Source: Cochliopodium minus
Taxonomy: Eukaryota; Discosea; Himatismenida; Cochliopodiidae
NCBI GenBank assembly: GCA_024220525.1
Contig: JAMYWO010000166.1
Location: 61,200 to 91,629 of the forward strand
DNA: 30,430 nucleotides
Direction of reading: 5' to 3'
Part shown: positions 5,041-29,600 of the stretch, in pieces
Numbering within the stretch: the first letter of the stretch is position 1
Layout: the number at the start of each line of letters is the position of its first letter
Notes under the pieces: model-generated
Told to the model about the DNA's origin: nothing
Databases searched by the model: none
Seen by the model: only the letters and a program-made list of their open reading frames with translations
Position numbers and translations under genes: made by a program

Positions 5041-6004
5041 ATGAAAGAGGTCAAAAGATTTCTTTCTAAATGTATTTGATGTTATTTCTTTTTTTTTTTG
5101 ATTTTTTCAAAAAGAATTGAAAAAATTACAATTTTGATCATACTCTCTAAATTGTTGCTATTTCATAGCCTACTTTTTCCAATTTTTCAAAACAAAAGAA
5201 ATATAAAGTTAAATTCAAATGAGATATAAAGTTACTAATTCTTAAAGCTAGAATGCAAATCTTTTATTTCTTCACAATTTGGATCAGAATCAGATTTTTG
5301 TGAATGAAAGATTTTGAAACAATTCTTTGATTTAAAGAAAATTGATCTTTCTTCTTTTTTAGACTTTGGGAAGGGGGATCCGATCACGTCTTGTATTTAG
5401 TTGAAATTTTGCTCTCCCTTAATTCTTCAATTTCTTTTTATTTTAATTTTAAAAATTAATTATTTTTGGATCTGCGGATATAATTTTACTTTTTTAATTT
5501 TCAAGTCTTAACTATTAAAAACTAATTTTTGAATCAAATTCTTTCTCCCATTTGCTATTTCTCAAAATAATTTATTCAACCAAATATAAAAAATTTTAAA
5601 TGTTCTCTATTTATTTTCACTGATTCTTATTTATTTCCAATTTGAATCAAATAAAAAAAAAAAACAATAATTTTGAATCAATACAGTAAAAATGAACCAA
5701 AATTTTTGCAAAATCTTTCATCAATTTCTTCTTTCATTTTTTGGTGAGGATCTTATTTTTAAAAAAAATTTAAATTTGGATCCAAAATATAAAAAAAAAT
5801 AAGTTTCCTAAAAAAAAAAAAAAATATTAAAAGTATCTTTGTACCATTCTTCAATTTTTTATTGAAGAAATTGTTCTCAAACATACCTAAAATATATAAA
5901 AAGTCAATTGAAAGTAAATAAATTTTAATTAATAAAATTAAAAAATAAAAATAAATTTAACCATCAATATCAAACATAAAAAAAATCAATCAGTGAAAAA
6001 AATC
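5041..6004. other. Intergenic, no gene seen
   Basis: Very AT-rich spacer with scattered GGATC-containing stretches and poly-A or poly-T runs. I find no exon with supported splice sites and no RNA gene. The last 100 bases are A-rich and lead into the ATG of the next Stealth gene, so the promoter and 5' leader probably lie here. Confidence 0.5.
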
Positions 6005-7826
6005 ATGTCACAAACTAAAATGAAAGTTAGTCCAATACTGATGTGGTTCATTTTGATATATTTTTTCATTATGACATCTATATTGCTGTACTTTATAATG
6101 TTTTACAATAATGAAGGAAATACAGTGATAGGAGCAGATATGGAATTGAAATCATATCCAATGAAAAATAGAAAAGGTATAATACTCTGATCATTAAAAA
6201 ATATATATATATTTTTTTTTTTTAAATCTTTGAAGAGGAGGAAATAAATCAAATAAGGAAAATAAAAATTTATTAAGATTTTTTATTTCCTCATTTATAT
6301 ACTTTCTAAATCAAATATTCATTTTAAATTTTCTTATAATAAAAAAAGGAATAAGGATAGAACCAAGCAAAAAGTTCAAACATCTTGATTGGAGGAGAGC
6401 TGCACCTAGGAAACAAGAAACTCCCGATCCGGATACCGATCCCTACGCAAATCCTTCCCAAGAAATTAAAAAGAAGAAAACCAAACGTACCATCATTAAT
6501 CCTGAAATACTCAGTGATGATTATAAGGTAGATATCGTTTACACATGGGTAAATGGGAGTGATCCTTTATTTCTAAAGAATTTGAATGAAGCTCTCAAAA
6601 CCCATAAAAATCTCAATGAGAATGGTAATTTTTATAATAGTATTAATTTTAATTTAATAAATTTTAATTTATTTTTAATTCAATTTATTTTATAATTTAG
6701 AATATAAATCTGCAAGATATAATAATCGAGATGAATTGAAGTATTCATTGAGAAGTATTGAAAAGTATTTTGATTGGTACAATAACATTTACATAGTTAC
6801 TAATGGACAAATACCCAGTTGGTTGAACACAAGCCATCCAAGAATAAAAGTTATCACACATCAAGAAATTTTCCTAAACAAAAAAGATCTCCCAACTTTC
6901 TCATCTGTTGCAATTGAATCCCATATACATCGTATTCCTGGTCTATCTGAAGAATTCATCTATTTAAACGATGATATCATGTTTGCTGATCATATCAAAA
7001 AAGATGATTTTGTTTCAAAACATGGATATTTAAAAGTATATGGATGTTGGGAATCTCCAAGAGGTAAACAAAAGAATATTCAAACAAAATTTTAAAATTT
7101 TTTTTTTTTCAATATTTTGATTTTTCACCGAAAAAAAAAATTAAAAAAAAATATTTATATATTTAAATCTTTTTCTAAATTTAGGATCTGAAAACTCTAA
7201 AAGTGACAACTTTGGAAATTCAATGAGATACGTCAATAGATTATATGATTACTACTTTGGTTTTAAAATGAGACAGGTTATTTGCCATACTCCTCATTTT
7301 TTAAAGAAGAGTGTGATCAACGATCTTCAATACGCTTTTGTTGAGGAATACAAAAAAACTTCTTCTCACAAATTCAGAGCAAATGATGACATGCAATTTG
7401 CTTTCTCGTAAGAAAATTTTTTTACAAATTTATTTATAATTTTTAAAAATATATAATTCTTAAATAGAAATTTCATTATGTTTCAACAATTAATTTTTTT
7501 TTTTCTTCCGAAATCATAGATACTTCCACTTTTTGATTTGGCAAAAAAAATATCTTTATATTGATTATAATCCTGGCCAACAACTAATTTTTTCGGGGAT
7601 CAAAATAATTGGTGAAAATAAAAAAAAATTCGAGGAGAGAATAAGTCAAAATGATTACAAATTTGTTTGTATCCAAGATGATCTCAGCTACAAAGATGAT
7701 CCAAGTGATTATCAAGAATACATTGAGAAATTTTATAATTCTAAATTCCCTTCTCCTTCACAATTTGAGTTGGCGGATGGTCACCACAACTCTCATTTGT
7801 ATATTAACGAGACCATCACTATTTAA
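6005..7826 (+). CDS. Stealth-family phosphotransferase (GNPTAB/Gpt-like), type II membrane protein
   Basis: Five exons, 6005-6176, 6349-6624, 6701-7063, 7185-7407 and 7520-7826, give 446 residues. The start at 6005 is followed by a membrane segment (about residues 11-34, LMWFILIYFFIMTSILLYF) and a polar stem. The four Stealth conserved regions are in order: CR1 VDIVYTWVNGSDP (about 118); CR2 DELKYSLRSIEKYFDW, IYIVTNGQIPSWLN, LPTFSSVAIES and IYLNDD (about 150-245); CR3 VICHTPHFLKKSV and TSSHKFRANDDMQFAFS; CR4 KFVCIQDDLSY. Family knowledge: Stealth enzymes transfer sugar-1-phosphate (GlcNAc-1-P in animal GNPTAB and Dictyostelium Gpt proteins) to glycans, with the active site facing the Golgi lumen. 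The actual donor and acceptor here are inferred. It is the first complete member of the + strand array; CR1, CR2, CR3 and CR4 fall on separate exons, as in the other members. The ACACATGG CR1 codons and intron phases match its paralogues. Confidence 0.93.
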
Positions 7827-8285
7827 TTTTTTTATTAATTTATTTATTAAAAAACCACTTTTTTTATTGTATTATATTAAATTTGGGTCATCCTAAATTC
7901 ATCCTTTTATGGGAAAATATTTTGAATTTTGGTTTTTAATTGAATTTGAGTAGAACACTTTGAATCTTGTTATTTGATCTTTACAATTTTCACAAAAAAA
8001 AAATCAACAAATATAAAACTTTCTTGATTCTACTTTTGATTAAATGTTTAATAGAAAACTTTTTAAGTTCCTCCCTTTTTTTTAGATACATCTTTCTATA
8101 CTCCCTATGTGATAGAATAAAAATAAGCCTTCCAAGTTTCCTAAAAAAATAAAAATGGGATCTTAATTTTCAAATTATTTAAAAAAATATATTTAAATTA
8201 AAAAAAAATAAAAAATAAAAAAAAAAACTCAATTCTTGAAGCAAAATTAATTATTTTTGGAAAGAAAAAAAAAAAAACTGATTGG
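7827..8285. other. Intergenic between two Stealth genes, no gene seen
   Basis: Short AT-rich spacer ending in an A-rich tract just before the next ATG. A 61-codon open frame at 7967-8152 has no family features and looks like chance. Confidence 0.5.
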
Positions 8286-9792
8286 ATGAGACTTTATCAT
8301 TGGATTATTTTTGTGATGATCTACTTTCTTATTAACCTCATTATATTTTTATATATGATCATCAACAAAGATAAAAAAGAAGAGGCCTTCCGACCCTTAA
8401 TTAAACTGAAAAAAATTACAATGTTGAATAGGGAGATATTCAATGATGATACAAAGGTGGATATAGTGTATACGTGGGTGAATGGAAGTGATCCCGAATT
8501 TATTGAAAAATTGAATAAAGAATTAAAGACCGAGAAATATAAACATCTGTATGATAATGGTAATATTACAAATAAAAACAAAAATAATTCAAGATCATCT
8601 CAAAGATAAATATATTGAAAATTTTTATTTTATTCGCCTATTTGAGAATATAAAAAAGCAAGGTATAATGATGGAGATGAATTAAAATATTCGTTGAGAA
8701 GTGTTGAAAAATATTTTGATTGGTACAATAAAATCTATATAGTAACAAATGGACAAATACCAAGTTGGTTGAACACAAGCAATCCAAGAATAAAAGTGAT
8801 TACACATCAAGAAATCTTCCTAAACAAAAAAGATCTCCCAACTTTCTCATCTGTTGCAATTGAATCGAATATACATCGTATCCCTGGTCTATCTGAAGAT
8901 TTCATCTATTTAAACGATGATATCATCTTCGGAAGCAAAATAGAAAAGTCTGATTTCTTCACACCTGATGGGAAGCACAAAATCTACACTTGTTGGAAAT
9001 CTCCCAGAGGTAAATAAAAGAATTTTGCGAAAAAAAGACATTATAAAGAATATTCTCTGAATAATATTGAATATATTTTGAATAATTTATTTTCTTATAT
9101 TTTATACAGTGAAACTGATTCAATCAAGGGATGCATTTGGTAATTCGATGATCTTTGTCAACAAATTGTATGATACGATGTTTGGATACACCCAAAGGAG
9201 GGTCATCTGCCACATGCCCAATTATATAAAGAAAAGTGTCCTTGAAGATCTCCATGATACATTCCCAAAAGAGTTCGAGAGAACATCATCAAACAAATTT
9301 AGAGCACATGAAGACATGCAGTTCAGTTTTTCGTAAGAAAATATTTTTTTGAAAGTATAATACGTTTTTATGAAGATATATAATCCATTATATCTATTTA
9401 TATGTTGATTTTATAAAGATTTTATATTCTAAAATTGAATTTATTTAATATTCGTAAAAATAAAATTCTCCGAACAGCGGAAAATATATTTAATTTTTAT
9501 TTATTTTTATAAATAAAAACTTTACAAAAAAAGATACTATCATTATTTGATCAGCAAAAAGCAATATTGGACTGTTGAAGTTGATCCCAAGAACCAACTC
9601 TACTATAAGAGTATTGGTAGTATCTACAAACACAAATCCTTTGAAGAAGATCCTGCATTCAAATCCACCATGCCAAAGTTCATGTGTTTGCAGGATGATG
9701 TTGATGGAGATGATGCTTTTGGCATTAAAAACTATTTCGTTACTTTTTTCGAATCCAAGTTTCCAGATCAATCTCAGTTCGAAAAAGTTTAA
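8286..9792 (+). CDS. Stealth-family phosphotransferase, short-stem paralogue
   Basis: Four exons, 8286-8559, 8647-9009, 9110-9332 and 9534-9792, give 372 residues. The membrane anchor (about residues 6-27, WIIFVMIYFLINLIIFLYMI) and CR1 (VDIVYTWVNGSDPEFIEKL, about residue 58) share one exon, with a much shorter stem than the previous gene. CR2 has LKYSLRSVEKYFDWYNK, LPTFSSVAIESNIHRIPG and FIYLNDD; CR3 has RVICHMPNYIKKSV and TSSNKFRAHEDMQFSFS; CR4 has KFMCLQDDVDGDD. The CR2 exon (363 bases) and CR3 exon (223 bases) have exactly the lengths of the upstream paralogue, which supports the splice sites. The stem exon of the previous gene has no counterpart here. The predicted role is the same: sugar-phosphate transfer in the secretory pathway. 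Confidence 0.93.
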
Positions 9793-10050
9793 AAAAAAAA
9801 ATTTGTTTCAAAATTGTATTTAATTAAAGCTTTATTTATTTATTTATTTTGTTTTTTTACTTTTCTTTTTCTTTTCAATATTTAAAAATATTTTTTTTTC
9901 AACTTTGAGGAAACATTGTTTGCTTTGAAATGGAAAGTTTTAAAGATAAAAATCTCAATAAAATAAATGATTTTTTTTTTTTTTTATTTTATTGTGTTAA
10001 AATAAATGTGTCATCATCCAGACACAATAAAAAAAAAAAAAATTGAGAGA

Positions 10051-11156
10051 ATGAACAAGAAATGTAATATTATCTTCTTGTTTATTTTAATGATTATCTT
10101 TGTCAGTATATCAATTATCATTTTTTTTAGAATTGATAATGGAGTTGAATCAAAAATAGGAATCCCTTCAAGACCCAAAATATGTATTGCATCACAGGAT
10201 AGCAGATTCTCAGCTGAAATGTTGGATTTATTTGAATCTAAAAATCTAAACGATATAAAGAGTAAATGGGAAGAGATAAAGAAATCAGGGATGGAAATAA
10301 ATATGATGATGAAATTTGCACTGATGAACACATATTATTCTTTAAAATTCAAAATGCCCTTTTTGGCATCGAATGGATCAAGATATAAAGATAAATTAAA
10401 AAATAGAGAAATTCATTGGTTCAAGATTGATTACGTTATAGATTTAATGAAAGAGAGGAAAGATTGTGATTATATATTTTGGTTGGGTAAAATTTTATGC
10501 GACAAGAACAATTCTAATTTTAAAGAATTTTATTTTTTTGATTCAAATTTTTAATTAAATAATTTTCAGATTCAGATGTATACCTTTGGATGTCCAATCA
10601 AACAATAGATTTGTACGATTTCTTTTCCGCACAACAAATCGCCCCAGAGAACACAAACTATATTACCTTCAATGAAGAAAGAATCAAAAGAAAAGGATAC
10701 TACCCCCTCGAAGAACAACCACAAGTAATGATCATTGGTTTGAACGGAGTGAACAAGAAGCAAGATTACAAAAATTATGTGGGATATCCCTTTCCCTACT
10801 TTAAGATCACCGAATATCTTTGCTCTGGTGTTTGGTTGATCAAAAACAATAGGAAAGGTCTCGATTTGTTGGAAAATTGGAGAAATCCCTCTCCTCTAAT
10901 GCTTGATAGGTTTAAATTCGCCAATATTGAAAACATTTATAAATCTTTTGCCAAGAAGCACAGTTATGAACAAATCGCCATGAATAGATTCATCCACAAG
11001 TATTATGAGTCTTCTATTCTCGTGTATGCGTTTGAGGACTTTGACAGCCCTGTTGGCGCTTTTCTTAGGCATATGTGGTCAGGAAATAGGGCGAGACACA
11101 AACTTATTTATGATGATAACTTTCTATTTGTTCTCAAATCTATTTATTCAAATTAA
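10051..11156 (+). CDS. Type II membrane glycosyltransferase, GT34 (GMA12/MNN10)-like
   Basis: Two exons, 10051-10486 and 10570-11156, give 340 residues. The ATG at 10051 is preferred over 10006 because it places a basic start (MNKKCN) before the membrane segment at about residues 5-28. The lumenal part has KICIASQDSRF, a helix ending YYSLKFKMPFLASNG, then DYIFWL-DSDVYLW, a DXD-type metal and nucleotide-sugar site (about 146-148) split by the intron. Later come YLCSGVWLIKNN and GLDLLENW, which align with the 'LNxGxFLIRN...LDxW' motif of GT34 galactosyl- and mannosyltransferases, and YEQIAMNRFI, in place of the DQ-containing helix. Family assignment is from these motifs only; a related GT-A family is possible. 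It lies in line with the Stealth array on the same strand and probably acts in the same secretory glycan pathway. Confidence 0.75.
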
Positions 11157-11370: not shown

Positions 11371-11944
11371 ATGAAACATATCAAAAACTTACAATCATTT
11401 GTTAAAAACAAAGTAGAATTTTTTTTTTAAACCTTAATACTTGAAATAAAAAAACTAGTTTTTCTTTACCAAAACAGATCATCTCATTGATAATCACGAA
11501 TTCTTTGAAAAAAATCAAGTGTATCACAAAGTGACAAGAGATAAATCTAAAAAACATACAAAGGAAGAAAAGCTCCCCTTTGAAAAGAACAAAATGATGA
11601 ATCCAATTGATCCAATCAAAAATCAAATCGATGATATCAAGGTATGTTTTGATTCCACAACGCCGAACCAGAAAGCAAATGAAGAAGATCTTTATGATGA
11701 AGAAACTTTGTACAAAAAAATCAGCGAAAATCCAAATTTTTTTTGTGAGGAAAAATATCTTCACAAGGAGATCCCTATGGCTATTGATGGATTGCCCATG
11801 ATAGATAAAGTTGCAAATATCGATCAATTGCCCAAACATGAGCCTCCTGAAAAACATGATGCTATTCCCCTAAGGGTAAAGAAAAGATTGTTCACTTTGG
11901 ATAGATATTCTGGTAAAAATTTCACTGATCATCATTCTGAGTGA
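11371..11944 (+). CDS. Tandem presequence-exon family, member 1 (175 residues, unknown function)
   Basis: Exon 1 (11371-11412) encodes MKHIKNLQSFVKNK. A 46-base GT-AG intron (11413-11458) follows, then exon 2 (11459-11944), which begins FFFTKTDHLIDNHEFF. The junction is phase 0, and an in-frame TAG immediately precedes exon 2, so the upstream exon is required. The leader is basic, without acidic residues, with K and hydroxylated residues and an aromatic cluster at the junction. It resembles a mitochondrial or hydrogenosomal presequence; this is inference. The rest is hydrophilic, rich in Lys, Glu, Asp, Pro and His (for example DQLPKHEPPEKHD), ends RLFTLDRYSGKNF, and has no membrane segment. 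I do not recognise the family. Three further genes with the same structure follow at 12019, 12474 and 13276. Confidence 0.65.
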
Positions 11945-12018
11945 AAATTAAAAATGACCGAATAATTAAATATAAAAAAATGAAAAAAAAATGAAAAAAA
12001 ATAAAAAAAAATAAAAAA

Positions 12019-12362
12019 ATGAAAATATCTATGAAAGTATTTAAAAAAGAAAACAAAAAAGTACAAAAAATTTTATTCACATTTTTAAATTTTTCTCAAT
12101 GAGTTTTAAATGATAGGTTTACTTTGTTAACACAGATGAAATGAAAAATATGTACAAAAATTTGCATCTCAAAAAAGAAGTTATCAGAAGCAAAATGGAA
12201 GAAGATCAGCCAAAAATTTTAGGAAAGAATAGAGTAGAAGAAATTCTTTTCAACCAAGAGGTTTCTCCAAAGAATGAAAAGATCAATCAACCAAAAAGAG
12301 CTGATCCTCCTAAACATTCTATCAAAGATGAGATTCCAACAAAAGATTTCACTGAAATATGA
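12019..12362 (+). CDS. Tandem presequence-exon family, member 2 (95 residues, unknown function)
   Basis: Exon 1 (12019-12060) encodes MKISMKVFKKENKK, again 14 codons. The intron is 12061-12116 and exon 2 is 12117-12362, beginning VYFVNTDEMKNMYKNL. The junction is phase 0 and directly follows an in-frame TAG at the acceptor. The mature part is short and basic-acidic mixed, with PKRADPPKHSIKDEIP, echoing the PP-K-H words of member 1. There is no membrane segment and no known domain. It is the shortest copy, and the upstream spacer is only about 75 bases of A-rich sequence. Confidence 0.55.
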
Positions 12363-12473
12363 TTTACAAAATTTTGGATTTTAATCAAATTGAAAGTTAA
12401 ATTTTAAACGAAAGTAGTCTTATATTTGAATTTTTTATATTTTTAAAAAATTAAAATAAAAATAAAAACATTG

Positions 12474-12957
12474 ATGAACAAAATAAACAAATTAAAAACT
12501 TTAAAATCGTATAAAAGGGTAATGTTTCTCATTTGAACCATTTTTAGCTTAATTTTATTAATTTTTTTGAGAAAAGTTTTTTAGTACAGATAAATTGAAG
12601 GATTCTTTGAACAAAACAATTCAAAACAATATACCAAATGATAGATCCCCAGTTGATCATAATCTTCCAAAATCAGATATCTTTCCAAAACTCAATGATA
12701 TAGATATTTATAAGGAAGATTTTTTCCCTGCAGAGGAAGATATCTCCTCAATTGATCAGATCCAACATAATCAGATGCCTCCATCTAAAGATTTATCGGC
12801 TAAAAAAGATAAAATTTTAAATGATGATCTCACCCACAGAAAGAACATTGACAAATTGCCAAGAGATAATATCACACCTACTTTTGATGAAGAAAATAAA
12901 AAAATTCCTGAAAGTAGAAAAAGTAAAGCCCCATTGGAAGATACAAAAATCATTTAA
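12474..12957 (+). CDS. Tandem presequence-exon family, member 3 (141 residues, unknown function)
   Basis: Exon 1 (12474-12518) encodes MNKINKLKTLKSYKR, 15 codons. The intron is 12519-12576 and exon 2 is 12577-12957, beginning FFSTDKLKDSLNKTIQ. The joined leader reads SYKR-FFSTD, which resembles the Arg-x-Phe/Tyr-Ser site cut by mitochondrial processing peptidase. This is the strongest hint in the family that the leader is an organelle presequence. The mature part is acidic and polar, with short PKLNDIDIYKEDFFPAEED and DKLPRDNITP segments, probably mostly disordered. The acceptor is GAAAAG; the phase-0 join is shared with the other members. Confidence 0.6.
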
Positions 12958-13275
12958 TGGATAATTCCTTTACATTTTATTTTTCGCCTTATATTTATTT
13001 TAAATAAAAAATCATTCCAAAAATTATAAATTATTAAATAATATTTTTTATTTGAAAAGATAATTGAGTCGGAGAAGATTTTTAGCCGATAAAATTTAAT
13101 ATATAGTGATAATGTTAAAAAAAACTCTGACAAAATCTAGGAGAAATCAAATAATTGTCTGAATCAAATAAATCACTTTTTATTTGAATAAAGTTCTTCA
13201 AAAAGATAATTTAAAAAAAAAAAATCAAAATTCAAAAAAAACTACTAATATAATCTTGGAAAATAAGAAAAAAAA

Positions 13276-13872
13276 ATGAACAAAATTAAAAACATCAAGA
13301 ACTTAATCAAAAATAAAGTAAAAAAAAAAAGAAAAAGAAAAATATCTAGTTTATAACATTTAAAGATAAATCTTTCTTCCGTTAAACAGGCAAGCTCCAT
13401 AGTAAATAACACAGAAAAAGTAACAAAATTGAATACTGATAAATTCAAAAATGTTCCGATAACACAAAAAGCAATCCCAATCGAATATAGACTTGAAGAT
13501 AGCTATGACCACTTTGAAACAAGGACACCTACATTGGAGATGTTCGGTAAAAGCAAGGTACTTGTGGAAACTGACGAGATCACAATGATCAATCAAAAGA
13601 TAAAGAATCTGGACAACAGGATCAGAAGAGATAGTGAAAATGAAATCAATATTTTAAATGAAGATATCGTCCCCGAACATCTCAAAGCAGAGCCTTTTTT
13701 GATCTCTTTCGGAGTTGATCATCTCTCCAAAGGGGATCATCCTCATTATTTTCATCAATATGATACACATTCAATGGAGACCAAAACTCATGTTGAAACA
13801 AAACTTGAAGATAATGATCCTTTTCCTTATCGTTATTCCATCAAAAAGAAAGATGATGAACAAAAATTGTGA
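13276..13872 (+). CDS. Tandem presequence-exon family, member 4 (174 residues, unknown function)
   Basis: Exon 1 (13276-13317) encodes MNKIKNIKNLIKNK, very close to member 3 at the start. The intron is 13318-13389 and exon 2 is 13390-13872, beginning ASSIVNNTEKVTKLNTDK in phase 0. The leader alternates Lys/Asn with Ile/Leu, giving an amphipathic helix without acidic residues. The mature part contains IPIEYRLEDSYDHFE, a coiled-coil-like stretch (INQKIKNLDNRIRRDSEN), a His-rich centre (GVDHLSKGDHPHYFHQYD) and ends with a charged tail. There is no membrane segment and no family that I recognise. It is the longest mature part together with member 1. Confidence 0.6.
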
Positions 13873-18012: not shown

Positions 18013-18325
18013 AATAAAAACAAAAATAAATAATTAAATAAAATTAAATAAATTAAATAAATTAAATTAAAATAAAAAAAATGAAAAATAAAATAAAAAA
18101 TAAAAAATAAAACCAAAAAATAAAAACTAAAAACTAATTAATTGAAAATAAATTATCAAAAAAATAAAAATGAAAAAATGAAAAAATAAAAATAAAAATA
18201 AAAATAAAAATAAAAATAAAAATAATAATAAAAATAAAAATAATAATAAAAATAAAAAATAAAAATAAAAATAAAAAATAAAAAATAAAAATAAAAAATG
18301 AAAAATAAAAAATGAAAAAATTTAC
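18013..18325. repeat. AAAAAT/AAAATA simple-repeat block
   Basis: Dense A-rich low-complexity DNA from the stop of the + strand gene to the donor of the - strand alpha-2-macroglobulin exon. The central part (about 18185-18300) is a nearly regular AAAAAT array. It is one of the four repeat blocks at which the alpha-2-macroglobulin exon order breaks. Confidence 0.85.
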
Positions 18326-19154
18326 CTTTCGGTTCAAAGTTATAAATTGCAGCTGATTTGGAATCAGAAGAAGAGGTTATTTGTTCTTTGAATATCTCTG
18401 ATTTACTTTCGAAGTAGGACATACCTCTTTTATCTTCTTTCTTTTCTTGGTAGGACCTGCTTATCTCGATTTTCACTTTGGTGCTTACAAAAGTTCCATC
18501 GATGCTCGCAACACAAATGGAGATAGGTACTTTGTCTTGATGTCTGCAAAAAAATTGATTTACTTTGAATCCTACGTAGAGTGATGAAGGATGTAAAAGA
18601 ATACTTGTTGCTCCGGTTATGGTCTGGTTGTTAATATCTATTAAAAAATATTCAAATTAATAATAAATAAAAATAAAATAAAATTATTTAAAATAAAATG
18701 TAAAAATATTAAAAATTAATATTAAGAATAATGAAAAAATTAAAATTAAGATAAAAATTAAACAAAAATAAATTTAATAAAATTAAATTAAATAAATTAA
18801 AATAAAATAAATAATTAAAAAAAAATATGATATAATTTAAAAATTTATTGAAAAATAAAAAATAAATAATATTGTTATACCTCTAACATTACCAACTAAA
18901 TTAATATTTATTGGAGTAGGTTCTTTTTGGTTTCCTTTACAATTTAGTCTCAATTTATGTTCACCTTGTTGATCAGTGACTCCCTCAAAGTCCCAATTTC
19001 CAAAAGTAGCGTAACTGCCTTTTGAAATCCACCAACACAAGTTGTTTTCTTCGAATTCGTAATCTGAGAGGCCAGCTGGTTTGAAATCGCAAACTCTTGC
19101 CAATACTTCCCAAAATACTTTTGCATCAGCCAATGGTCCTCCAGCAAAATAACT
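18326..19154 (-). CDS. Bacterial-type alpha-2-macroglobulin, MG3-bMG6 exons (displaced fragment)
   Basis: Two exons, 19154-18881 (or from 19152) and 18637-18326. The first reads SYFAGGPLADAKVFWEVLA, then DYEFEENNLCWW and VTDQQGEHKLRLNC, the pattern of the macroglobulin domain that precedes bMG5 in bacterial-type alpha-2-macroglobulins. The second has LLHPSSLYVGFKVNQFFC, KVPISICVASIDGTFVST and ends YNFEPK-G, the bMG6 pattern. In every family member these domains come before the MG/bait exons, yet here they lie downstream of the bait exon on the same strand. The exon at 18326 ends with one base of a codon, and the exon starting at 21090 needs exactly one base. Joined they read FEPKGKYGNYVFTFIVED, the expected continuation. 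No N-terminal signal exon is present. The protein would trap proteases; this fragment alone cannot. Confidence 0.75.
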
Positions 19155-19255
19155 CTTTTTAAAAAATTAAAGAATAAAACTAATTTCAAATTTAAAATTT
19201 AAAATCCAAAATAATGATAAATAAATAAATTTAAAACTTAATAAAACAAAAAATA

Positions 19256-19345
19256 AAAAATATTTTTATTTTTTATTTTTTATTTTTTATTTTTTATTTT
19301 TTATTTTTTATAAAAAATAAAAAATAAAAAATAAAAAATGTTATT
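19256..19345. repeat. Fold-back simple repeat (TTTTTTA)n to (TAAAAAA)n
   Basis: The + strand runs as TTTTTTA units for about 50 bases and then switches at about 19310 to TAAAAAA units for about 30 bases, giving a long near-perfect palindrome that could form a hairpin. It lies exactly between the bait exon (ending 19547) and the displaced MG3 exon (starting 19154). Confidence 0.85.
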
Positions 19346-19546
19346 AAAAAATAATTTAATAAATAAAAAATAAAAAAATAATAATAAAAATTAAAAAATA
19401 ATTTAATAAAATGATTAATAAATAAATTAAAATAAAAAATAAAAAATAAAAAATAAAAAATGAAAAATATGTTATTAAAAAATAATTTAATATTAAAAAT
19501 TATAGATAAAAAAGAAATTTAATAAAACAAAATTTTTGATATTTAC

Positions 19547-21090
19547 CTATATTTTGTTAATGAATCAGGGATATTGAATTTGACAGAAGTAAGACCATCG
19601 CAATCAGTAACAGCAGAAGGAGAAAAATGGCCAAGAGGATCAAAATTGCTTCTCACTTTGATAGGGTCATCTCCCCCAGCATCTTCATCATCACAATGCT
19701 CTTCCTTTTCGTCATTGATCTCTTGTTTGTCTTGTTTTTTCTTGGAGGATTCTTTTCTGCAACACTTTTTTTCTTTGATTGATTCTATTAAACAACACTC
19801 ATCACATTCACATTCACAACAATTACAAAGATCACCACAACAGTGACGTTCTTCATTCATTTCTTTCATACATTCTTCTTCACATTTATCTTCTTCTTCT
19901 TCGGAAAAGTAGTCAGACTCACTTGGCCTTGGCGGAAGTTTTTTTGAAAGATCCTCCATTGTAATAAATGTTATGTTGCTTCTTTGTCTGTACGTTTGTA
20001 TTTTTCCATATCTTTTTGTGTAAAAGAGAGACAATGGGTTTGTAAGTTGGTGTCCAGAAAGAGAAAGCACGCTCTCGTCTACTACCACAATACATACTTC
20101 CGCTCCCTTTACTGGTTTTCCACCATTATCTTTGACCAAGACTTCCACCGACATTTCTTCCCCTTTTTCAAAAAATAAAAGATTTAATGAAAAAATTCCT
20201 TTAAAAAATTTTTGTTTTTTTTTAAAAAAATTAAAAAATTAAAAAAAAGTAAAAATTAAAAAATAAATATATCAAAGAAAAGACGATTAATAAAAAATTA
20301 AAAAAAATAAATTGATTTAAAAATTTGAAAATATTCTAACCAGGAATAACATCTTTTTCGGATGGAGTTGGAGTTACGGTGAGAGAATGTATTTTGTTCG
20401 AAACATTTATTTCTATTTCCCCAAAGGCATAAGCAGGTACTTTCACTGTGCTATTTTTCTTGTCATCTGAAGGTTCAATCTTGTAACCATTCACGTACGC
20501 TTTCAAAATTGCATTTGGTATTATTTCTTTCTTTATGTTGAACTTAACAACTTCTGATCCTTCTGACATTTCAAAATTGTAAAAATCCAAAATACCGTCA
20601 CAATCAACAACCAAACATCTAATTTAAAAAAAAAAATTTAAAAAAATAAATTTTAAAAAAAAAATAGAAATGAATAAAATTATTAAAAAAAATGAAATAT
20701 TTAAATTCTTTCTTCAAAATTAAAATTATTAAAAAAATAAAAATTTTAAAAATATTTTAAAATTTTAAATAATACATTCTTTTCTTTTGAAAATTTTTTA
20801 AATAAAAATTATAAAAATCTAATAATAATAATTTTTTCTTTTTTAATTTTTTTTTTATTACAAGTGACAAGGTGAAAAAGGAGATGAAACCAATACTTCT
20901 GCTACTTCTCCGATATGATACATACTCTTGTTTGGAAAAAGTTCAATTTTGTCGAGATCGATTTTGGTTTTGGACTTTGGTTTGGAGGATTCAGATTGTC
21001 CTCCGCTAACTGTAAAGTTCATCTTGCTTTTGTTCTTTCTTCCCTCCTTATCCTCGACAATAAATGTAAATACATAATTACCGTATTTTC
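19547..21090 (-). CDS. Bacterial-type alpha-2-macroglobulin, bMG6-to-bait-region exons (partial)
   Basis: Three exons: 21090-20862, 20618-20341 and 20162-19547. Exon 1 carries GKYGNYVFTFIVEDKEGR and IELFPNKSMYHIGEVAEVLV with SPFSPC. Exon 2 continues LVVDCDGILDFYNFEM and ends TPSEKDVIPG. Exon 3 is the bait-region domain: VKDNGGKPVKGAEVCIVVVD, ESVLSLSGHQLTNPLSLFY, and after a long insert RSNFDPLGHFSPSAVTDCDG and FNIPDSLTKYR. These are hallmark strings of the A2M bait-region domain. The insert (about 19690-19900) has about 14 cysteines in some 70 residues, with HCCGDLCNCCECECDECC, then an acidic stretch. The exon ends with two bases of Arg, which fit the exon starting at 30341 (A-ATC, RIWAMAATNSQYG). 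It also fits, by chance, the displaced exon at 19152. The 5' side runs into an AAAAAT array and the 'n' at 21199. Confidence 0.85.
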
Positions 21091-21199: not shown

Positions 21200-21628
21200 T
21201 CTCATTTATGAGCTTCACAAAATTTTTCCTAAAGAGTTTGAAAAAACTTCTTCACATAAATTTAGATCTAAAGATGATATGCAATTTAGTTTTTCGTAAA
21301 AAAAAAATTTTTTTGAAAGATTTTATATTCAATAGTTCTCTTTTTCTAAAATAATAATTTGAATAGATACTTTCATTTCTTGATCTCAACTAAAAGATTT
21401 GCTCATTCAAAAATAAATCCAAAGAAAGAGCCCTACTATAAAGGTCTAAAAGCTATTTATGACGAAAAATCTTTTGATGTGGAACTATTCCCGGAAAATC
21501 TCCCGAAATTTTTGTGCATTCAAGATGATCTTGACTATGATGTTGAGAACGTCACATTTTATAGGGATTATTATGTCGGTTTTTTAGGAAAGATTTTTCC
21601 TTTCAAATCTCAATTTGAATTGTCTTGA
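21200..21628 (+). CDS. Stealth-family phosphotransferase, 3' fragment (second half of CR3 exon and CR4 exon)
   Basis: Partial exon 21200-21295 reads LIYELHKIFPKEFEKTSSHK and FRSKDDMQFSFS, the end of CR3. After a GT-AG intron, exon 21367-21628 reads YFHFLISTKRFAHSKINPKK, YYKGLKAIYDEKSF and CR4 KFLCIQDDLDYDVE, ending SQFELS-TGA. The frame is open throughout, so the missing 5' part (anchor, CR1, CR2) was probably lost at the 'n' at 21199 rather than by decay. It is the third member of the + strand Stealth array and would have the same catalytic role if complete. Confidence 0.85.
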
Positions 21629-22035
21629 AACAACCTTTTGTATTTTCAAACTAAATAATTTATTTAAAATTAGAATTTAAATTTAATTAAAATTAAATTT
21701 TATTTGATTAAAAAATGTTTGGTTTTTATTGAAGATCTTCAAAATTAATAATTTTAAAAAAAACACAATCAAGCTTTGTTAATTTTTACAATTTTTGTTT
21801 AAATTTAAAGTTTTTTCCTAAAGGATTTTTTCAATTGTTGTTAAATTCAAAGATTTTTTGTTTATTTTTGTGCAAAATATTTTCTTTGATATTTTATTTT
21901 TATTATATTAAGTGAAGATGGTTGTTTTTTGTTTGAAAATAGATGTGGAGGTAATTAATTAATTCGGGAAAGAAAAAAATTATAAAATACAAAAAAAAAA
22001 AAAAAAAGAAAAAAAAAGAAAAAAAATTTTAAAGG
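21629..22035. other. Intergenic between Stealth genes
   Basis: T-rich spacer followed by a poly-A stretch with AAAGAAAAAAAAG just before the next ATG. I see no gene. The A-rich leader before the start is shared by the Stealth genes at 8286 and 24765. Confidence 0.5.
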
Positions 22036-24484
22036 ATGAACTTCCATTTAAAACTCACAATACTTGTTCTCATTTATTTTTTCACCATCGTTTTCACATT
22101 TTCCTATTTCATCTTCTTAGACGAACCAAATTCTCGAGCAAACAAAAATGATAACAGTTTAACAATAAATCAATTGAATACAGAAGGTAAATCAATGTTG
22201 GAATTCAAACAACCAAAAGAAATGAGATCTGCATTGAAGCTTATTCCTAAAAATAGTGAAAAAATAAATATATTGAATAAAAATATAGGCACAGGAAGAG
22301 GTCAAGATCACTCAACATCTTCTTCATTTCAAATCAAGGAAGAGATTTTACATAACTCACATAAAAAATCAAAGGAGGAAGAAAATATTGAATTAAAAAA
22401 AAATGAAGGATCCACGATTAATGTATCTCACATGAATAGAGCATCATCAGAATCAGAAGAATCAAAAGAGGGCATTAAAAATAATAATAAATATTTAAAT
22501 ACTCTACTTCCAAAATCAGATGTTGACCAAAAGAAAAAAGAAAAAAAAATTTTAGTGAAAAGAAGTAAGGGATTGATCAACAAAAAACCATTGTACAATA
22601 AGAAAATATTTTCCGATAATAATGATTCTTTGAAAAATAAGAAAAATAAAAATGATGGAGAAGATAACAAGCATAAAGGGATGAAGGATGTACAAATACA
22701 AGAAACAAAGCAGATGAATACAGAAGAAATGGAAATAAAGAGAAGGATCAATGAATTAAGAGGCAAATTATGGAAGCCTCATGAGGAAGGAAAGGATCAT
22801 CATGAATTGGAGGAACATGGAAAAGAAGATGTAAAGAAGATGAAGATTAAAGGGAGAATTAATAAAATGAATGTAAATAACCAACAAAATCATCCAAATC
22901 AAATAAAGAAAGAAAATGACACAATACCAAGTATTCAACAGAAAGAAGAACATCAAAAAGAACCAAAGTTGGGATCTCATCCTTCAGATGTCAAAACTAA
23001 TCCTCCAGATGTCAAAACTAATCCTCCATCTGATGATAACAAGCAACTTCCTGCACATCCAAAGCTCAACAAAGATATAAAGGTTGATTTGGTGTATACA
23101 TGGGTGAATGGAAGTGATATTGATTTCTTGAGGCAAATGGATATGGCATTGAAAGCAATAAATTCTTCGTTAAAAGAAAATGGTAACAAATATAAACATT
23201 TTTTTGAAGAAATTACCTTAATTTTCATTTTATTTACAAAGAATACACTAAAGCAAGATTTTTTGATGGAGATGAATTAAAATATTCGTTGAGAAGTGTT
23301 GAAAAGTATTTTGATTGGTACAATAAAATCTATATAGTAACAAATGGACAAATACCCAGTTGGTTGAACACAAGTAATCCAAGAATCAAAGTTATTACAC
23401 ATCAAGAAATCTTCCTAAACAAAAATGATCTTCCAACTTTTTCATCTGTTGCAATTGAATCAAATATACATCGTATCCCTGGTCTATCTGAAGATTTCAT
23501 CTATCTAAACGACGATTTCATGTTCTCCAGGAAAATCACATTGGATGATTTCTTCACATCAAAAGGTGATCATAAAATATATTTGTGTTGGTTATCTCCC
23601 AGAGGTAGAATAACAAAAAATTTTCAATTTTATTTTATTTTTTTAATTTATTCTAAATTTTTTTATCTTTAATAGGAAACATTGATGAAAAAACTGACAG
23701 CTACGGAAATTCCATGAGACACGTCAATAATCTCTTCGATTCAAAGTTTGGCAGAAGAATAAGAAAGGTGATCTGCCACACTCCCAACTACATGAAGAAG
23801 AGCGCCATCAAAGAGCTCCAAAATATTTTTCCAGAAGAATACATCAAGACTTCTTCACACAAATTCAGGGCTAATGATGACATGCAATTTGTTTTTTCGT
23901 AAGAAAATTTTTTAATTATTTTTGTTCTGTTTTAATATTTTCTTTGTTTAAATGAACAATTTCTATTCATTAGTAGGGATCTCCAAAAATATTACAACAG
24001 TTTAAATTTTGTTAAAAAAATTTTTATATCCTCTAACAAAGTTGTAATATTTGGACATGTCTAATTCATTAATTTTTTATACATCAATTTGTTTTAATAT
24101 TTTTTAATCATCAATTTGTTTCAATATTTTTATTTTTAATGAACAATTTTTTTTTTTAACAGTTACTATCATTTTTTGAGACACACTAACAAATATCGTT
24201 CTTCCGATGTTGATCCCCACAACGAACTCTTGTATCGAGGAATCAAGGAGATGTCCGACAAAAATTTCAACATTACCAAGATCATAGGTTCTAATAAAAC
24301 CAAGTTTTTGTGCATTCAAGATGATCTCGATTACAACAAGGATGTTACCAAGGAAAAGAATTACATCAACAATTTTTACCGCCAATTCTTTCCTAACCCT
24401 TCTCCTTTTGAGTTAATTGAAGATTTTCCTTCTATTGCTCCTTCTATTTTGAAAGATGTTGAAACATCTCCTTCTCCAAATTAA
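22036..24484 (+). CDS. Stealth-family phosphotransferase with very long charged stem
   Basis: Four exons, 22036-23182, 23242-23604, 23676-23898 and 24163-24484, give 684 residues. The membrane anchor is at about residues 6-28 (LTILVLIYFFTIVFTFSYF). A Lys/Glu/Asn-rich stem of roughly 320 residues follows, containing a 21-base tandem repeat (22981-23022, PSDVKTN-PPDVKTN). CR1 VDLVYTWVNGSDIDFL begins near residue 350. CR2 (LKYSLRSVEKYFDWYNK, LPTFSSVAIESNIHRIPG, FIYLNDDFMF), CR3 (VICHTPNYMKKSA, TSSHKFRANDDMQFVFS) and CR4 (KFLCIQDDLDYNKD) are intact. CR2 and CR3 exon lengths (363 and 223) equal those of the genes at 6005 and 8286. The last intron carries a MITE. The C-terminus extends past the usual end with a Pro/Ser tail. 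Predicted Golgi-lumen sugar-phosphate transferase; the stem may set its reach or localisation. Confidence 0.93.
22981..23022 (+). repeat. 21-base tandem repeat in Stealth stem
   Basis: Two adjacent copies of a CCTNCAGATGTCAAAACTAAT unit, differing by one base, encode PSDVKTN and PPDVKTN, with a third degenerate start. The repeat keeps frame and lengthens the stem just before CR1. Confidence 0.85.
23965..24071. mobile_element. Short hAT-like MITE, copy B, with target duplication
   Basis: A 91-base element (23973-24063) starts GTAGGGATCTCC and ends GGACATGTCTA, and is flanked by ATTCATTA on both sides (23965-23972 and 24064-24071). Ends are imperfect inverted repeats: TAGGGATCTCCAAAAATATT against the complement TAGACATGTCCAAATATTAC, each followed by ACAAC. 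Its complement resembles copy A along most of its length. It lies in the last intron of the Stealth gene and is non-coding. Movement must have depended on a transposase encoded elsewhere. Confidence 0.78.
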
Positions 24485-24764
24485 TTTTCCTCTCTTTTTT
24501 TTAAAATTTGTTTTATATTTGTTTTTTTTTATATTTATTAAAAGTCGTTTGATATGTTAGTTTAATATTTTTAGAGATGTTTGTTTTTTTTCAATGAAAA
24601 ATTTCTTTTATTATTTTTATATAAGCGGAAATATAGAAAAAAAAATATTTAAAATATAATAGAAGTTAATTTGAAAGCACCCAAATTGTATTCAAATCCA
24701 TTTACTTCTTTTGAACAAAAAATAATAAAAAATAATAATAAAAAAAAATTTTTTTCATCAAAGA

Positions 24765-26393
24765 ATGGGATTTGTGATGAAGATTTGGATGATTGTGATA
24801 ATTACCAATATCACTACCATAACTATTACTTTGACTTATTTTTCATATATGGAAAAAGAGAAAAAAGAACCTCAGTTATTCACAGTAAAAAAAAAAAATC
24901 TTACTTTTTCGACACTTGCATTCAAGGATATGTCCAAGGAAGAAAATGTTTCAAAACAAAGATTGATTTTAGAAAATAAAAAAAAAATAAATAAAATAAA
25001 GAGGGAGGATTTGATTCCCCAAAGGAGGATGAATCAAAATCAATTTCAAAAGAAGGAGTAATACAAAATAATACTAATGATGTTAAAATAGATGTCAAGG
25101 AAAAGCCCTTGGTCAAAAAACCATTGATCAGACCTGTGATTAGTTTCGAAGATGTTTTGAAGGATGATTTCAAAGTAGATATTGTGTATACTTGGGTGAA
25201 TGGGAGTGATCCTGATTTTATTGAGAAAATGAATGAAGAACTAAAGAAACTGAAAAAATCAATAAGAGAAAATGGTAATAAAACAAAAAAGAATAAGATT
25301 ATATCCATTATATAAGATCCCATTAAAAGAATAAAATTCATTTAACTATAAATTTCACTATAAATATTTATATTTCAGAATATAAATCTTCAAGGTTTAA
25401 TGATGGAGATGAATTGAAGTATTCATTGAGAAGTGTTGAAAAGTATTTTGATTGGTATAATAAAATTTATATAGTAACAAATGGACAAATACCCATTTGG
25501 TTGAACACAGATCATCCAAGAATAAAAATGATTACACATCAAGAAATCTTTCTTAACAAGAATGATCTCCCTACCTTCTCATCTGTTGCTATTGAATCGA
25601 ATATACATCGTATCCCTCGTCTATCTGAAGATTTCATCTACATGAATGATGACTTCATGTTCTCCAGGAAAATCACCAAGGAACATTTCTTTGCTAATAC
25701 TCAAAACAAAAATGTAATTCCAAAAATATATGAGTGTTGGGATGCAAGAAAAGGTAAATCATTTTTTAATTTTAAAAAGAAAATTAATTGTAAATTAAAA
25801 ATTCAAAAAATTTTTACAAGAGAATAAATATTTTTTTTAATTTTTCAAAAGGCAACATATCTGATAAGAGAGATGCTTACGGAAATTCTATACGTTACGT
25901 TTACCAACTTTATGAAAGCAAATTTGGGAAGAAAGACTATACCTTCAAGGTGATTTGCCACCTTCCCCACTTGGTCAAAAAAAGCGTAATAGGATATCTT
26001 CACGAATGGTTTCCTGAAGAACTTGAAAGAACTTCCTCGAATAAATTTAGAGCCAATAATGATATGCAATTTGCTTTCTCGTAAAATTATTTTATTTTTT
26101 TTTCATTATTATATTTTTTATTATTATTTTTTAGATACTATCACTTTTACAAACTATCTTATCCAAAAACTTTCCAAGAAACTTTTCCTCATGACATGCT
26201 CTACTTCAGCGGAATCAAAGATCTTCACAAGATTAAAATTCAGTTTGGTCTCGAGATAAACTTTGAACAACACGACTTTATTTGTTTTCAAGACGACCTG
26301 GATTACAACCAAAAAGAGTCTAAAGTTGTAAGAAAGTTTATGGATGATCTTTATTACTCTTTTTTGCCTATTCCTTCTCAATTCGAGAAATAA
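24765..26393 (+). CDS. Stealth-family phosphotransferase, diverged paralogue with a frame problem in the stem
   Basis: Exons 24765-25274, 25379-25753, 25852-26080 and 26135-26393. The start region MGFVMKIWMIVIITNITTI gives a membrane anchor. The stem frame that starts at 24765 stops at 25059, while CR1 (VDIVYTWVNGSDPDFIEKM) lies in another frame that is open only from about 24985. The shift falls at a run of ten A bases near 24980-24990, so a homopolymer error, a small intron or real damage are all possible. CR2 (LKYSLRSVEKYFDWYNK, LPTFSSVAIES, FIYMNDD), CR3 (VICHLPHLVKKSV, TSSNKFRANNDMQFAFS) and CR4 (DFICFQDDLDYN) are otherwise intact. It differs from its paralogues in having Arg for Gly in HRIPRLSED, NND for NDD in CR3, and longer CR2 and CR3 exons (375 and 229 bases). 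Confidence 0.85.
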
Positions 26394-26608
26394 TTTGATT
26401 ATTTTGATAATTTAGTTCCGTATTTGTAAAATTAAAATTTAAAACTTTCCAAGAAAAAAGAAATCTCTTCCATAATGAATTCAAGTTTAATAAAAAGATT
26501 ATTTTAATTTATACTTCTTTAATAAAGAAAAAAATATATTAAAAGAAAAATGTTTTTTTATTCAGAAACATTTTTAGTTCAAAAAAAAACATCAAATAAC
26601 ACCAATCA

Positions 26609-29600
26609 CTAATCCTCAACAATTACTCTATCAGATTTACTTCTACCAAAAATCTCAGGAGAATACATTTCCTCGCAATAAGAAGGAGGAACAACAAAGT
26701 TTCCTTTGGTGGTAGCCCTACACTCAAAAGAAAAAGAGTAATTTCCTTCCCATAACAAAGACTGGAACGCTTCTGCTCTTTCATCTCTGAAGTTGACGTG
26801 TTCGTACCACTGGTATTGGTTGTAGTATCTTGAGGAGTATGGGTTGTTGGATCTGTTGGAGACGGAGAGTTGCCCTTTGAGTTTTGGGTTGATTATTTCC
26901 AATCCAGCTGGTATTTTATCGACTTTAAAATCAAAATATTTAATAAAAAATTTTTGAAATTAAACAGTCAAATTAAAAAATTAAAATAAAAAATTAAAAT
27001 AAAAAATTAAAATTAAAAGAAAAATAAAAATAAAAATAAAAGTAAAAATAAAATAAAAAGTAAAAAAATGAAAAAATAAAAAATAACATTCAAAAATAAA
27101 AATTTAAAGTTTGTTTTGATTTTTACCCATTGCAACATGATATCTTCTGCTTTTGGTTGTGAGATCAATTTTAACTCTAAACTTCTCTCCAACTTTCATT
27201 CTCCAAACACCATCATTGTCTTTCTTCAAATGACTGTTTTCATCAACTGCTTCATAGCTTCTTTTAACGATGAAACCACGATCCATCTCGTCTGAAATCA
27301 AGTTGGTGGGAGAGTAGTTCAGAGCTAATCTGTAGTATAGACGTCCTTTTCCTTCTTTTGAATGATCAATGTTTTATCCTTTTCCATAACATATTTCATT
27401 CCGATGTTAACCTTTTTTAAAAAAAAAAAATAAAAATGTAGGAAAAGAAAAATTTAAAAATAAAGAGAAAATATATTTTTTTAAAAAAATAAAATCAAAT
27501 TCAATAAAAATAAAAATAAAAATAAAATAATTGAAATTAAAAAAATTAAAAACTAAGAACAAAAATATAAAAATATAAAAATAAAAATAAAAATATAAAA
27601 TATAAAATATAAAAATAAATAAAAAACAATTTTTTTTTTACTATGTTTGTGTCTGTTGATCTTCCTTTCCATACTTGCTCTCAGCATAATCTTCTCCATA
27701 CCACATTCTCATAATGAAATCAGGAACTTGGCTCTCGTAAACTGAAAATAATTGTCCAAAGCATAAAGGATCAAAGAGTTTTCTTGTGTATTGGCTTTAA
27801 AGATAAAAATAAAAATAAAAATAATAAATAAATTAAAAAAATAAAAATAAAAAAAATTAAATAAAAATTAAAATTAATAAAAATTAAATAAAAAAATAAA
27901 TAAAAATAAATAATATGATAAAAGAAAATAAATAAATTTATAAAAGATTTTTGTTACCCCATCTTCCTCTCTTTTTGTGTGCAAGCAAACCTTTAGTAAT
28001 TTTGGACATAAACTGTTTTTAGGTGAAACAGTCAACAAAGCGTCAAAGAACTCCGTCAGTTCTCCTGTCACTGTGGAACATGACGTACTTTCCGTCATCC
28101 CGTATGAAGTGACAAAGTTGGCAGTTTCTGCGGTCTCGTGGATGTTGGAATAAAGATAGTTCAAAATTTTCTTTGTGTATTCTTCTGATTGAGAACTTCC
28201 CTGTAACGACACCACCAACCCTTTTGAATAAAAAAAAAATAAAAAATTTGAAATAAAAAATAAATAAAAAATAAAAAATAAAAAATTAAATACTAAAAAT
28301 TAAAAATTAAATTATAAAAAATTAAATAAAAAATTGAAATAAAAAATAAAATAATAAAAAAATAAAAAAATAAAAAAATAAATAAATAAAAAATAAAAAA
28401 TTAAATATTAAATATTAAAAATTAAATAAAAATAAGTTTCTACATCCTAAAGACTCAAGAGAAAATTCATGAAATTCATTCTTTTCGAAAAGATCAATAG
28501 CTTTGTCGGTAACATTCTCGCCAAACTTGGTGAGTACAAACAAAGAAAAGGCTTTGAGGGAATTTTTGGTCATTTTGGAGTACCAAACGCACAAATGGTT
28601 CTCTATTCTCTCTAAGAATGGTTTGAGTTTTAGCCAAACACTGCTGTCAAAAGGAATGTTCTTTTGTTTACATACAGCTTTTAAAAAAAAAATTTTAATG
28701 TTTGTTTGATTTTTAAAATATTGGAAATCAATCCAAATTTAATAGTATTAATTTTTTTTTAAATGAAAAAATTACCCAAACAAAATCCTATGTAACAAGA
28801 AATGAATCTAACAAAAAATTAATGTAAAAAAAAAAAATCCTTTAATTGATAATAAAAATTAATTTTTTGTAAATAATTTAAATCAAATTAAAAAATTATA
28901 AATTTAAAAAATAAATAAAATTTATTAAATTAAAATAAATATCAAATTAAAAAATTTTAGATAAATTTTTAAATAAAAATAAATATAATAATAAAAAAAT
29001 TTATTAAAATAAAATGAACAAAAAATCAAAAAATTAATTGAAATTATTTTTTTACGGATCTGTGTAACTGGATGCTTCCCAACTTCCAAATCCACCACTA
29101 CTGTTCTGCCTATTTTTGATTTTTAGTGCTTTCGTGGTGAGATAAGTGTTGATTTCGTCAACAGTGGGGATGCCTTTTATTTTGAAAGAAGTGATCACGT
29201 CTCTTAGTGAGGCACAAGCTATGATTCCCGAAGAAAGTTGCTCGTTACATTCAAATGCGTAATTGTAAAGATAAAGAAATGCATCTGTCAATGATTGTAA
29301 AGCAGTTGTCCTTTTAAAATTATTGACAAAAAATAAAAAAATAAAAAAAAAATAATAGAATTAAATTAAAAATAAAAATAAAAATAAAAATAAAAATAAA
29401 AAATAAAAATAAAAATAAAAAATAAAAAAATTTAAAAATTTAAAAATAAAATATTTTTTTTAAATGAATGAAAAAGAATTTAAATTTTAAATAAAAAATT
29501 TTTTTAAAATGAATGAAAAATAAAAGAAATATAAGAATTTAATCTGTCTTTGAATTTAAAATAATTTTTTAATTTTTTTGTTTTTAATCTTACGAAGTGC

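Follow-up and report, generated by a model that had tools for sequence, protein, structure and literature searches.

Four neighbouring genes in a 30,430-nucleotide stretch of Cochliopodium minus DNA (the window: bases 61200-91629 of the 91,629-base contig JAMYWO010000166.1, in assembly GCA_024220525.1 of 44.65 Mb and 598 contigs) share a predicted layout in which a first exon of 14-15 codons encodes a lysine-rich leader and a single second exon encodes a cargo part. The leaders resemble the N-termini of mitochondrial genes of the same genome, and no convincing relative of the cargo was found in the collections searched. Judging from the sequence, we consider it probable, with moderate confidence, that the four units are leader-exon precursors of mitochondrial matrix proteins, made from probably paralogous genes.

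Anatomy of the four units and chance occurrence of their layout

The first-pass annotation of this DNA had described four two-exon units on the plus strand, and their ATG codons, phase-0 donors and single open second exons are all present in the sequence at 11371-11944, 12019-12362, 12474-12957 and 13276-13872 (Table 1). Each unit runs from an ATG through 14-15 lysine-rich codons to a GTA donor in phase 0, an intron and one open second exon, and consecutive units are separated by 74, 111 and 318 nucleotides (nt). A residue count finds four to six Lys/Arg in each leader and a single Glu overall, in unit 2, as had been noted. The guanine-cytosine (GC) fraction is 0.30-0.34 in the second exons versus 0.17-0.21 in the introns, and the acceptors lie, by eye, in the range of those of introns in the Stealth-family genes of the window. 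Since every predicted intron holds an in-frame stop and the length is not divisible by three in three of the four, joining of the leader by read-through is impossible. We infer the splice sites from the sequence, and alternatives exist in two units: in unit 3, a donor after 12508 with exon 2 from 12585 would give MNKINKLKTLKS-TDKLKDS, and exon 2 of unit 4 may start at 13366. An ACAG-A occurs early in each exon 2; ACAG was rejected as the true acceptor, being out of frame with the leaders by reading.

The layout is rare by chance. When the DNA upstream of each unit was dinucleotide-shuffled 2000 times, a comparable leader under strict criteria with limits taken from the data (12-16 codons, phase-0 GTA donor, intron of 40-80 nt, in-frame acceptor) arose in 0.20, 0.40, 0.60 and 0.35% of shuffles for units 1-4, and under relaxed criteria (any phase; GTA, GTG or GTT donors) in 6.7, 10.4, 8.2 and 3.7%. 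Both strands of the contig together hold 28 leaders consisting of ATG, 14 or 15 codons and a phase-0 GTA; exactly the four units among them reach a mitochondrial score of at least 4 (the targeting score described below), the next best scoring 0.5. Similarly, a mitochondria-like leader of 9-30 codons stands upstream of 4 of the 94 coding-like open reading frames (ORFs) of the contig (taken as those of 75 codons or more with a GC of 0.28 or higher; the 1.2 kb piece L016 was excluded), and all four are the units; five start codons lie behind these matches, since unit 2 contributes a second ATG.

A leader pattern (ATGAAYAARATHAARAAY) applied genome-wide gave 44 matches versus 8 with the reversed control, and was set aside as not useful: of 13 matches inspected among the 44, with translations read by eye, in none does a leader of some 14 codons precede a phase-0 donor and a cargo exon.

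Table 1. Predicted exons and introns of the four units (window coordinates; all donors predicted in phase 0)
Unit	Feature	Coordinates	Strand	Details
1	Leader exon	11371..11412	+	42 nt; MKHIKNLQSFVKNK
1	Predicted intron	11413..11458	+	46 nt; GTAGAA...AACTAG; in-frame stop
1	Cargo exon	11459..11944	+	161 codons (aa); start FFFTKTDHL; four [IVL]Dx[IL] motifs
2	Leader exon	12019..12060	+	42 nt; MKISMKVFKKENKK
2	Predicted intron	12061..12116	+	56 nt; GTACAA...TGATAG; in-frame stop
2	Cargo exon	12117..12362	+	81 codons (aa); start VYFVNTDEM
3	Leader exon	12474..12518	+	45 nt; MNKINKLKTLKSYKR; alternative donor after 12508
3	Predicted intron	12519..12576	+	58 nt; GTAATG...GAAAAG; in-frame stop; alternative 12509-12584
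3	Cargo exon	12577..12957	+	126 codons (aa); start FFSTDKL
4	Leader exon	13276..13317	+	42 nt; MNKIKNIKNLIKNK
4	Predicted intron	13318..13389	+	72 nt; GTAAAA...AAACAG; in-frame stop; alternative end 13365
4	Cargo exon	13390..13872	+	160 codons (aa); predicted 32-residue helix, mature residues 61-92

Leaders and the presequences of mitochondrial genes of the same genome

The proposal that the leader exon encodes a targeting presequence gains support from mitochondrial genes of the same genome, whose presequences are lysine-rich. Names of these references beyond the Pfam family (Cpn60, F1-beta, F1-delta, mtHsp70, M16 alpha/beta MPP, E2) are our reading of the sequence, and their splice models are predictions. 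The references include genes found through PF00364 (10 places; regions near C55, C290, C575, C436, C88 and C91 inspected, the N-terminus being visible in C290 and C88), PF00675 (matches on 6 contigs, of which C206 and C293 were inspected) and PF00012 (8 N-terminal regions inspected, 2 taken as mitochondrial). With predicted splicing, an intron falls within the presequence in 5 of the 10 inspected references, or 5 of 11 when a reductase-like gene on the present contig is counted. Cpn60 (C3) has a 15-codon leader exon (MKLFNIKKVPKVFKK) with a phase-0 GTAAAT, followed by NYGSIIMRNYAKD; F1-beta (C101) has 15 codons (MIKNTTKLTKYFSKK) plus one base, hence phase 1, followed by VPKSMRFYTQQEP; and an M16-family gene (C206) has MLKFFKKIN, phase 0, followed by KGNIKNVHLNKYSTIS. 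The presequence exon is longer in mtHsp70-2 (C65, 25 codons) and in a lipoyl-domain gene (C88, 29 codons).

A targeting score was built from the amino-acid composition of the first 20 residues and trained on 10 mitochondrial references and 13 other proteins of the genome. In leave-one-out runs it separated the two sets completely (references 3.3 to 13.5, others -16.5 to -0.2), a result to be read in the light of sets that are small and hand-picked, negatives that include no basic disordered cytosolic proteins, and a TauD-domain gene placed among the mitochondrial ones solely on its N-terminus. Units 1-4 score 7.5, 7.7, 8.7 and 5.2, and all four thus fall among the mitochondrial references. Among 44 further ORF starts, a score of at least 5.2 was reached by three: a Pfam NAD_binding_8 protein, a gene beside F1-beta, and an apparent internal methionine of a larger protein. 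The first of these, the top scorer, is an FAD/NAD-binding protein encoded on the same contig (L010:519-995, minus strand) with a mitochondria-like N-terminus (MKMIKKFKKISPIKLSYGYITSRS), and the score had flagged it before its family was determined. We take this protein to resemble mitochondrial ferredoxin reductase.

The gene beside F1-beta, which also adjoins the F1-delta-like gene (L061 2998-3447, minus strand), encodes a 150-residue protein with a presequence-like start. A leader-like start (MFKKILKKNLLLKKN), at 489-839 on the minus strand, has a donor in phase 2 and a frame of 70 codons; it overlaps a 186-codon ORF (334-894) that is read in a different frame.

Besides the stated limits of the score, several observations weigh against reading the four units as leader-exon precursors of mitochondrial proteins. 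A presequence intron is absent in half of the references, namely the F1-delta-like gene, mtHsp70-1 (C211), the M16-family gene of C293, the lipoyl-domain gene of C290 and the TauD-domain gene (C179). The hydrophobic moment of the leaders does not exceed that of shuffled order in any unit (p 0.095-0.94; unit 3 has almost none); the same test gave p 0.013 for F1-beta, 0.079 for the F1-delta-like protein and 0.30 for Cpn60. A processing-like site, [KR]x(0,1)[FY][STAH], a motif set after viewing the references, occurs in 9 of 11 reference N-termini versus one of the four units. That one is the SYKR-FFSTD junction of unit 3, which the first-pass annotation had likened to a mitochondrial processing site: it is present in the proposed model but depends on the choice of splice sites, and it is lost with the alternative splice 12508/12585. 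When the contig was scanned more loosely, by charge alone, five other leader-like starts appeared, two of them inside Stealth-family genes. As to reading frames, a codon score was best in the proposed frame for all four second exons, but it is weak because it picked the true frame in just one of four held-out control exons, and it favours frame 1 in none of the four leader exons.

Some of these points would fit a rival explanation, in which the units encode charged disordered proteins of the cytosol or nucleus and the first exon is untargeted and only happens to look like a presequence. It would account for the weak amphipathicity of the leaders and for a processing-like site in a single unit, and 5 of 51 ORF starts in sampled DNA have a net charge of at least +4 and at most one acidic residue in 14. 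On the other hand, the composition score groups all four units with the mitochondrial references, and chance leaders on the contig stay at or below 0.5. We therefore regard untargeted N-termini as quite unlikely; that the leaders resemble the N-termini of mitochondrial genes found in this genome supports the view that they may act as mitochondrial presequences. As to the organelle, hydrogenosomes had been offered as an alternative to mitochondria; since F1-beta is encoded in the genome, a mitochondrion is likelier, and one Fe-hydrogenase-family locus was also found.

Cargo parts and the relation among the four units

The cargo parts look disordered. In a charge-hydropathy comparison, the mature part of every unit plots on the disordered side of the line and all three controls on the folded side, and single-sequence structure models are of low confidence (mean predicted local distance difference test score, pLDDT, 50.6 for unit 4 and 47.2 for unit 1). 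The model of unit 4 contains a helix at mature residues 61-92, with block means of 80 and 89 over residues 61-80; in the best register, hydrophobic residues take six of its nine heptad positions, and the helix has a larger moment than its shuffles (p 0.013-0.026). Unit 1 carries four [IVL]Dx[IL] motifs, a pattern picked after viewing the sequence, where shuffles average 0.31 and none of 5000 reaches four; unit 3 carries two (p 0.11).

No convincing homology of the cargo to a known family emerged in the searches made. No unit matched Pfam or NCBIfam over the curated cut-off, the nearest being a weak RNA_pol_Rpb1_3 match in unit 2 (E 0.018). PDB searches gave no match for units 1-3 and, for unit 4, 19 weak chains (E 0.4-0.96), all integrin beta-3 and none convincing. 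Unit 4 had no relative in a scan of prokaryote contigs, nor did units 1 and 3 in scans of viral contigs. Searched against the C. minus genome, the units had their best matches other than themselves at E 0.092 for unit 1 (C259), 0.016 for unit 2 (C179), 0.54 for unit 3 and 1.34 for unit 4.

The match of unit 2 bears on a further explanation, according to which the models are wrong or the genes are dying, so that the second exons belong with other first exons or are remnants of older genes, with unit 2 perhaps derived from a TauD-type dioxygenase. The alternative splice sites of units 3 and 4 speak for it, as does the alignment of unit 2 to a TauD-domain gene of C179 (raw score 81). This gene is single-copy (L076 460-1773, plus strand), and its presequence-like start, LKRYFSIEKF, is similar in sequence to the unit 3 junction KRFFSTDKL. 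However, the genome-wide expectation for the alignment is about 0.14 once a translated intron is removed, one of 20000 shuffles scores above unit 2, and the idea that unit 2 is the relic of a TauD-type dioxygenase was rejected as unproven. Units 1, 3 and 4 show nothing against the TauD-domain gene (p 0.26, 0.43 and 0.73); an apparent likeness of unit 4 (p 0.018) was given up, as it was seen with the translated intron in the target and is gone without it. No exon-2 product matches Pfam TauD at E up to 1, a genome search with the TauD-type protein did not list the cluster, and four long open exons speak against decay. Wrong models or dying genes are thus very improbable.

The four units had also been put forward as a lineage-specific, fast-evolving family, and the case for this is divided. 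It is supported by the tandem arrangement of the units, by their identical layout and by a TDx[LMF] stretch that all four carry among the first 25 residues of exon 2, but the mature parts cannot be aligned beyond chance: local alignment of the six pairs gave p = 0.13, 0.15, 0.76, 0.20, 0.42 and 0.84, and the best shared motif over the full length, at widths 5-15, gave p = 0.12-0.76. The short words PP-K-H and DxLPK, named earlier as shared, are present in the sequences but belong to this level of chance. Within the first 25 residues, a restriction chosen after the stretch was noticed, a shared stretch has p 0.000-0.011 depending on width (1000 shuffles), and the TDx[LMF] pattern arose in 0 of 20000 shuffles. 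By eye, S-T-[DEQ] runs also follow other presequences (NYSTE in the F1-delta-like protein, KYSTQ in that of C293), which means that the stretch may belong to the context of processing, and paralogy consequently rests mostly on tandem position and layout. A single fast-evolving family is therefore weakly supported.

It could instead be that the units are mitochondrial without being one family, as adjacent young or unrelated small genes that share a leader style through AT-richness and the local manner of presequences. This would agree with mature parts that show no similarity beyond chance and with leaders whose likeness is mainly one of composition, the same leaders being carried here by unrelated mitochondrial genes. 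Against it, the layout on the contig is confined to this run of four, and the TDx[LMF] stretch, in a test chosen post hoc, is common to all of them. We consider this explanation unlikely.

For the favoured reading, that of probably paralogous leader-exon precursors, we infer splicing, import, cleavage, paralogy and function as follows. Four neighbouring, probably paralogous nuclear genes would encode precursors of small mitochondrial matrix proteins, with a basic leader of 14-15 residues from exon 1 joined by splicing to a single open exon for the cargo. This leader, possibly along with the residues that open exon 2, would serve as the presequence for TOM/TIM23 import, and the matrix processing peptidase would cut near the junction to release a soluble, largely disordered protein of about 80-160 residues. 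The cargo might be a lineage-specific protein that partners a mitochondrial complex in an accessory or regulatory role, a guess that we hold to be doubtful. It would bind by short motifs, [IVL]Dx[IL] being most evident in unit 1, and unit 4 would in addition use a short coiled-coil-like helix.

Neighbouring genes, significance and comparison with known systems

Several genes or gene pieces in tandem, marked by the Stealth-type words YTWVNGSDP and ELKYSLRSVEKYFDWY, occupy 6000-9800 and 21350-26400 of the plus strand, and the one exon tested, 23208-23672, matches Pfam Stealth_CR2 (2.5e-45). Alpha-2-macroglobulin-like pieces lie at 18100-20600 and 26600-29400 of the minus strand; of these, 27104-27373 matches Pfam bMG10 over the cut-off, and the others tested are weak. 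The joined exons of the gene just upstream of the cluster (10051-11156, plus strand) resemble Glyco_transf_34 (E 1.2e-4, just under the cut-off). The A-rich spacer after unit 1 (11944-12000) recurs at six other places of the genome with 81-97% identity over 33-57 bases and is probably of low complexity.

If the favoured reading is true, the array keeps just an import tag and a gene layout recognisable while the cargo becomes unalignable, and it would offer a natural setting for studying the origin and divergence of new mitochondrial proteins and for testing the reuse of a presequence exon as a module. It would also be a warning that in AT-rich genomes presequences are lysine-rich and no more than weakly amphipathic, so that standard predictors may miss them. 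Should the units be ordinary orphans, their value would be that of a candidate set for mitochondrial proteomics.

Within the genome, the closest parallels are Cpn60, F1-beta and the M16-family gene of C206, which like the units have a short lysine-rich first exon followed directly by an intron (phase 0 in Cpn60 and C206), but whose cargo is conserved and folded and which lie on separate contigs and not in tandem. The motif RxLx[EQD], which is the PEXEL motif, occurs in none of the four units, and the best 11-residue hydropathy in their first 70 residues is at most 0.43. Exported proteins of Plasmodium join variable cargo to a leader exon across a phase-0 intron (PMC1431722), and the two-exon members share with the units a targeting peptide in a short exon 1, a phase-0 first intron, a variable exon 2 cargo and a lineage-specific expansion. 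In contrast to the signal sequence and PEXEL used there for export (PMC1431722), the leaders of the units are basic, with neither PEXEL nor a hydrophobic stretch. A mitochondrial counterpart of such leader-exon exportome families is conceivable, although improbable: the locus would then hold fast-diverging mitochondrial cargo kept together by one delivery module, the leader exon with its phase-0 intron. In that speculative picture, diversifying pressure on the disordered cargo would come, for example, from conflict between nucleus and mitochondrion or from parasites inside the cell that act on mitochondria.

In Andalucia godoyi, about 30% of predicted mitochondrial proteins are without known function, including an orphan paralog family of seven members (PMC7050145). 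The family is described as predicted mitochondrial and paralogous, with no conserved domain and no homologues reported (PMC7050145), features that the units would share; the members are, however, more than 80% identical, whereas the mature parts of the units are nearly unalignable and their genes adjacent with one leader-exon layout. Acquisition of presequences by exon shuffling, as in plant cytochrome c1 (Long et al., 1996, cited in PMC6198282), likewise places a targeting sequence on its own exon, but nothing in the units suggests that one leader spread by copying between the genes, their likeness being mainly compositional. A search of the open-licence literature found no described family of this look, and the earlier statement to that effect holds for the proteins, which match nothing found, but not for the layout, which has the precedents above. 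The four units are thus best filed as orphan proteins in an unusual tandem layout, and not as a new kind of system.

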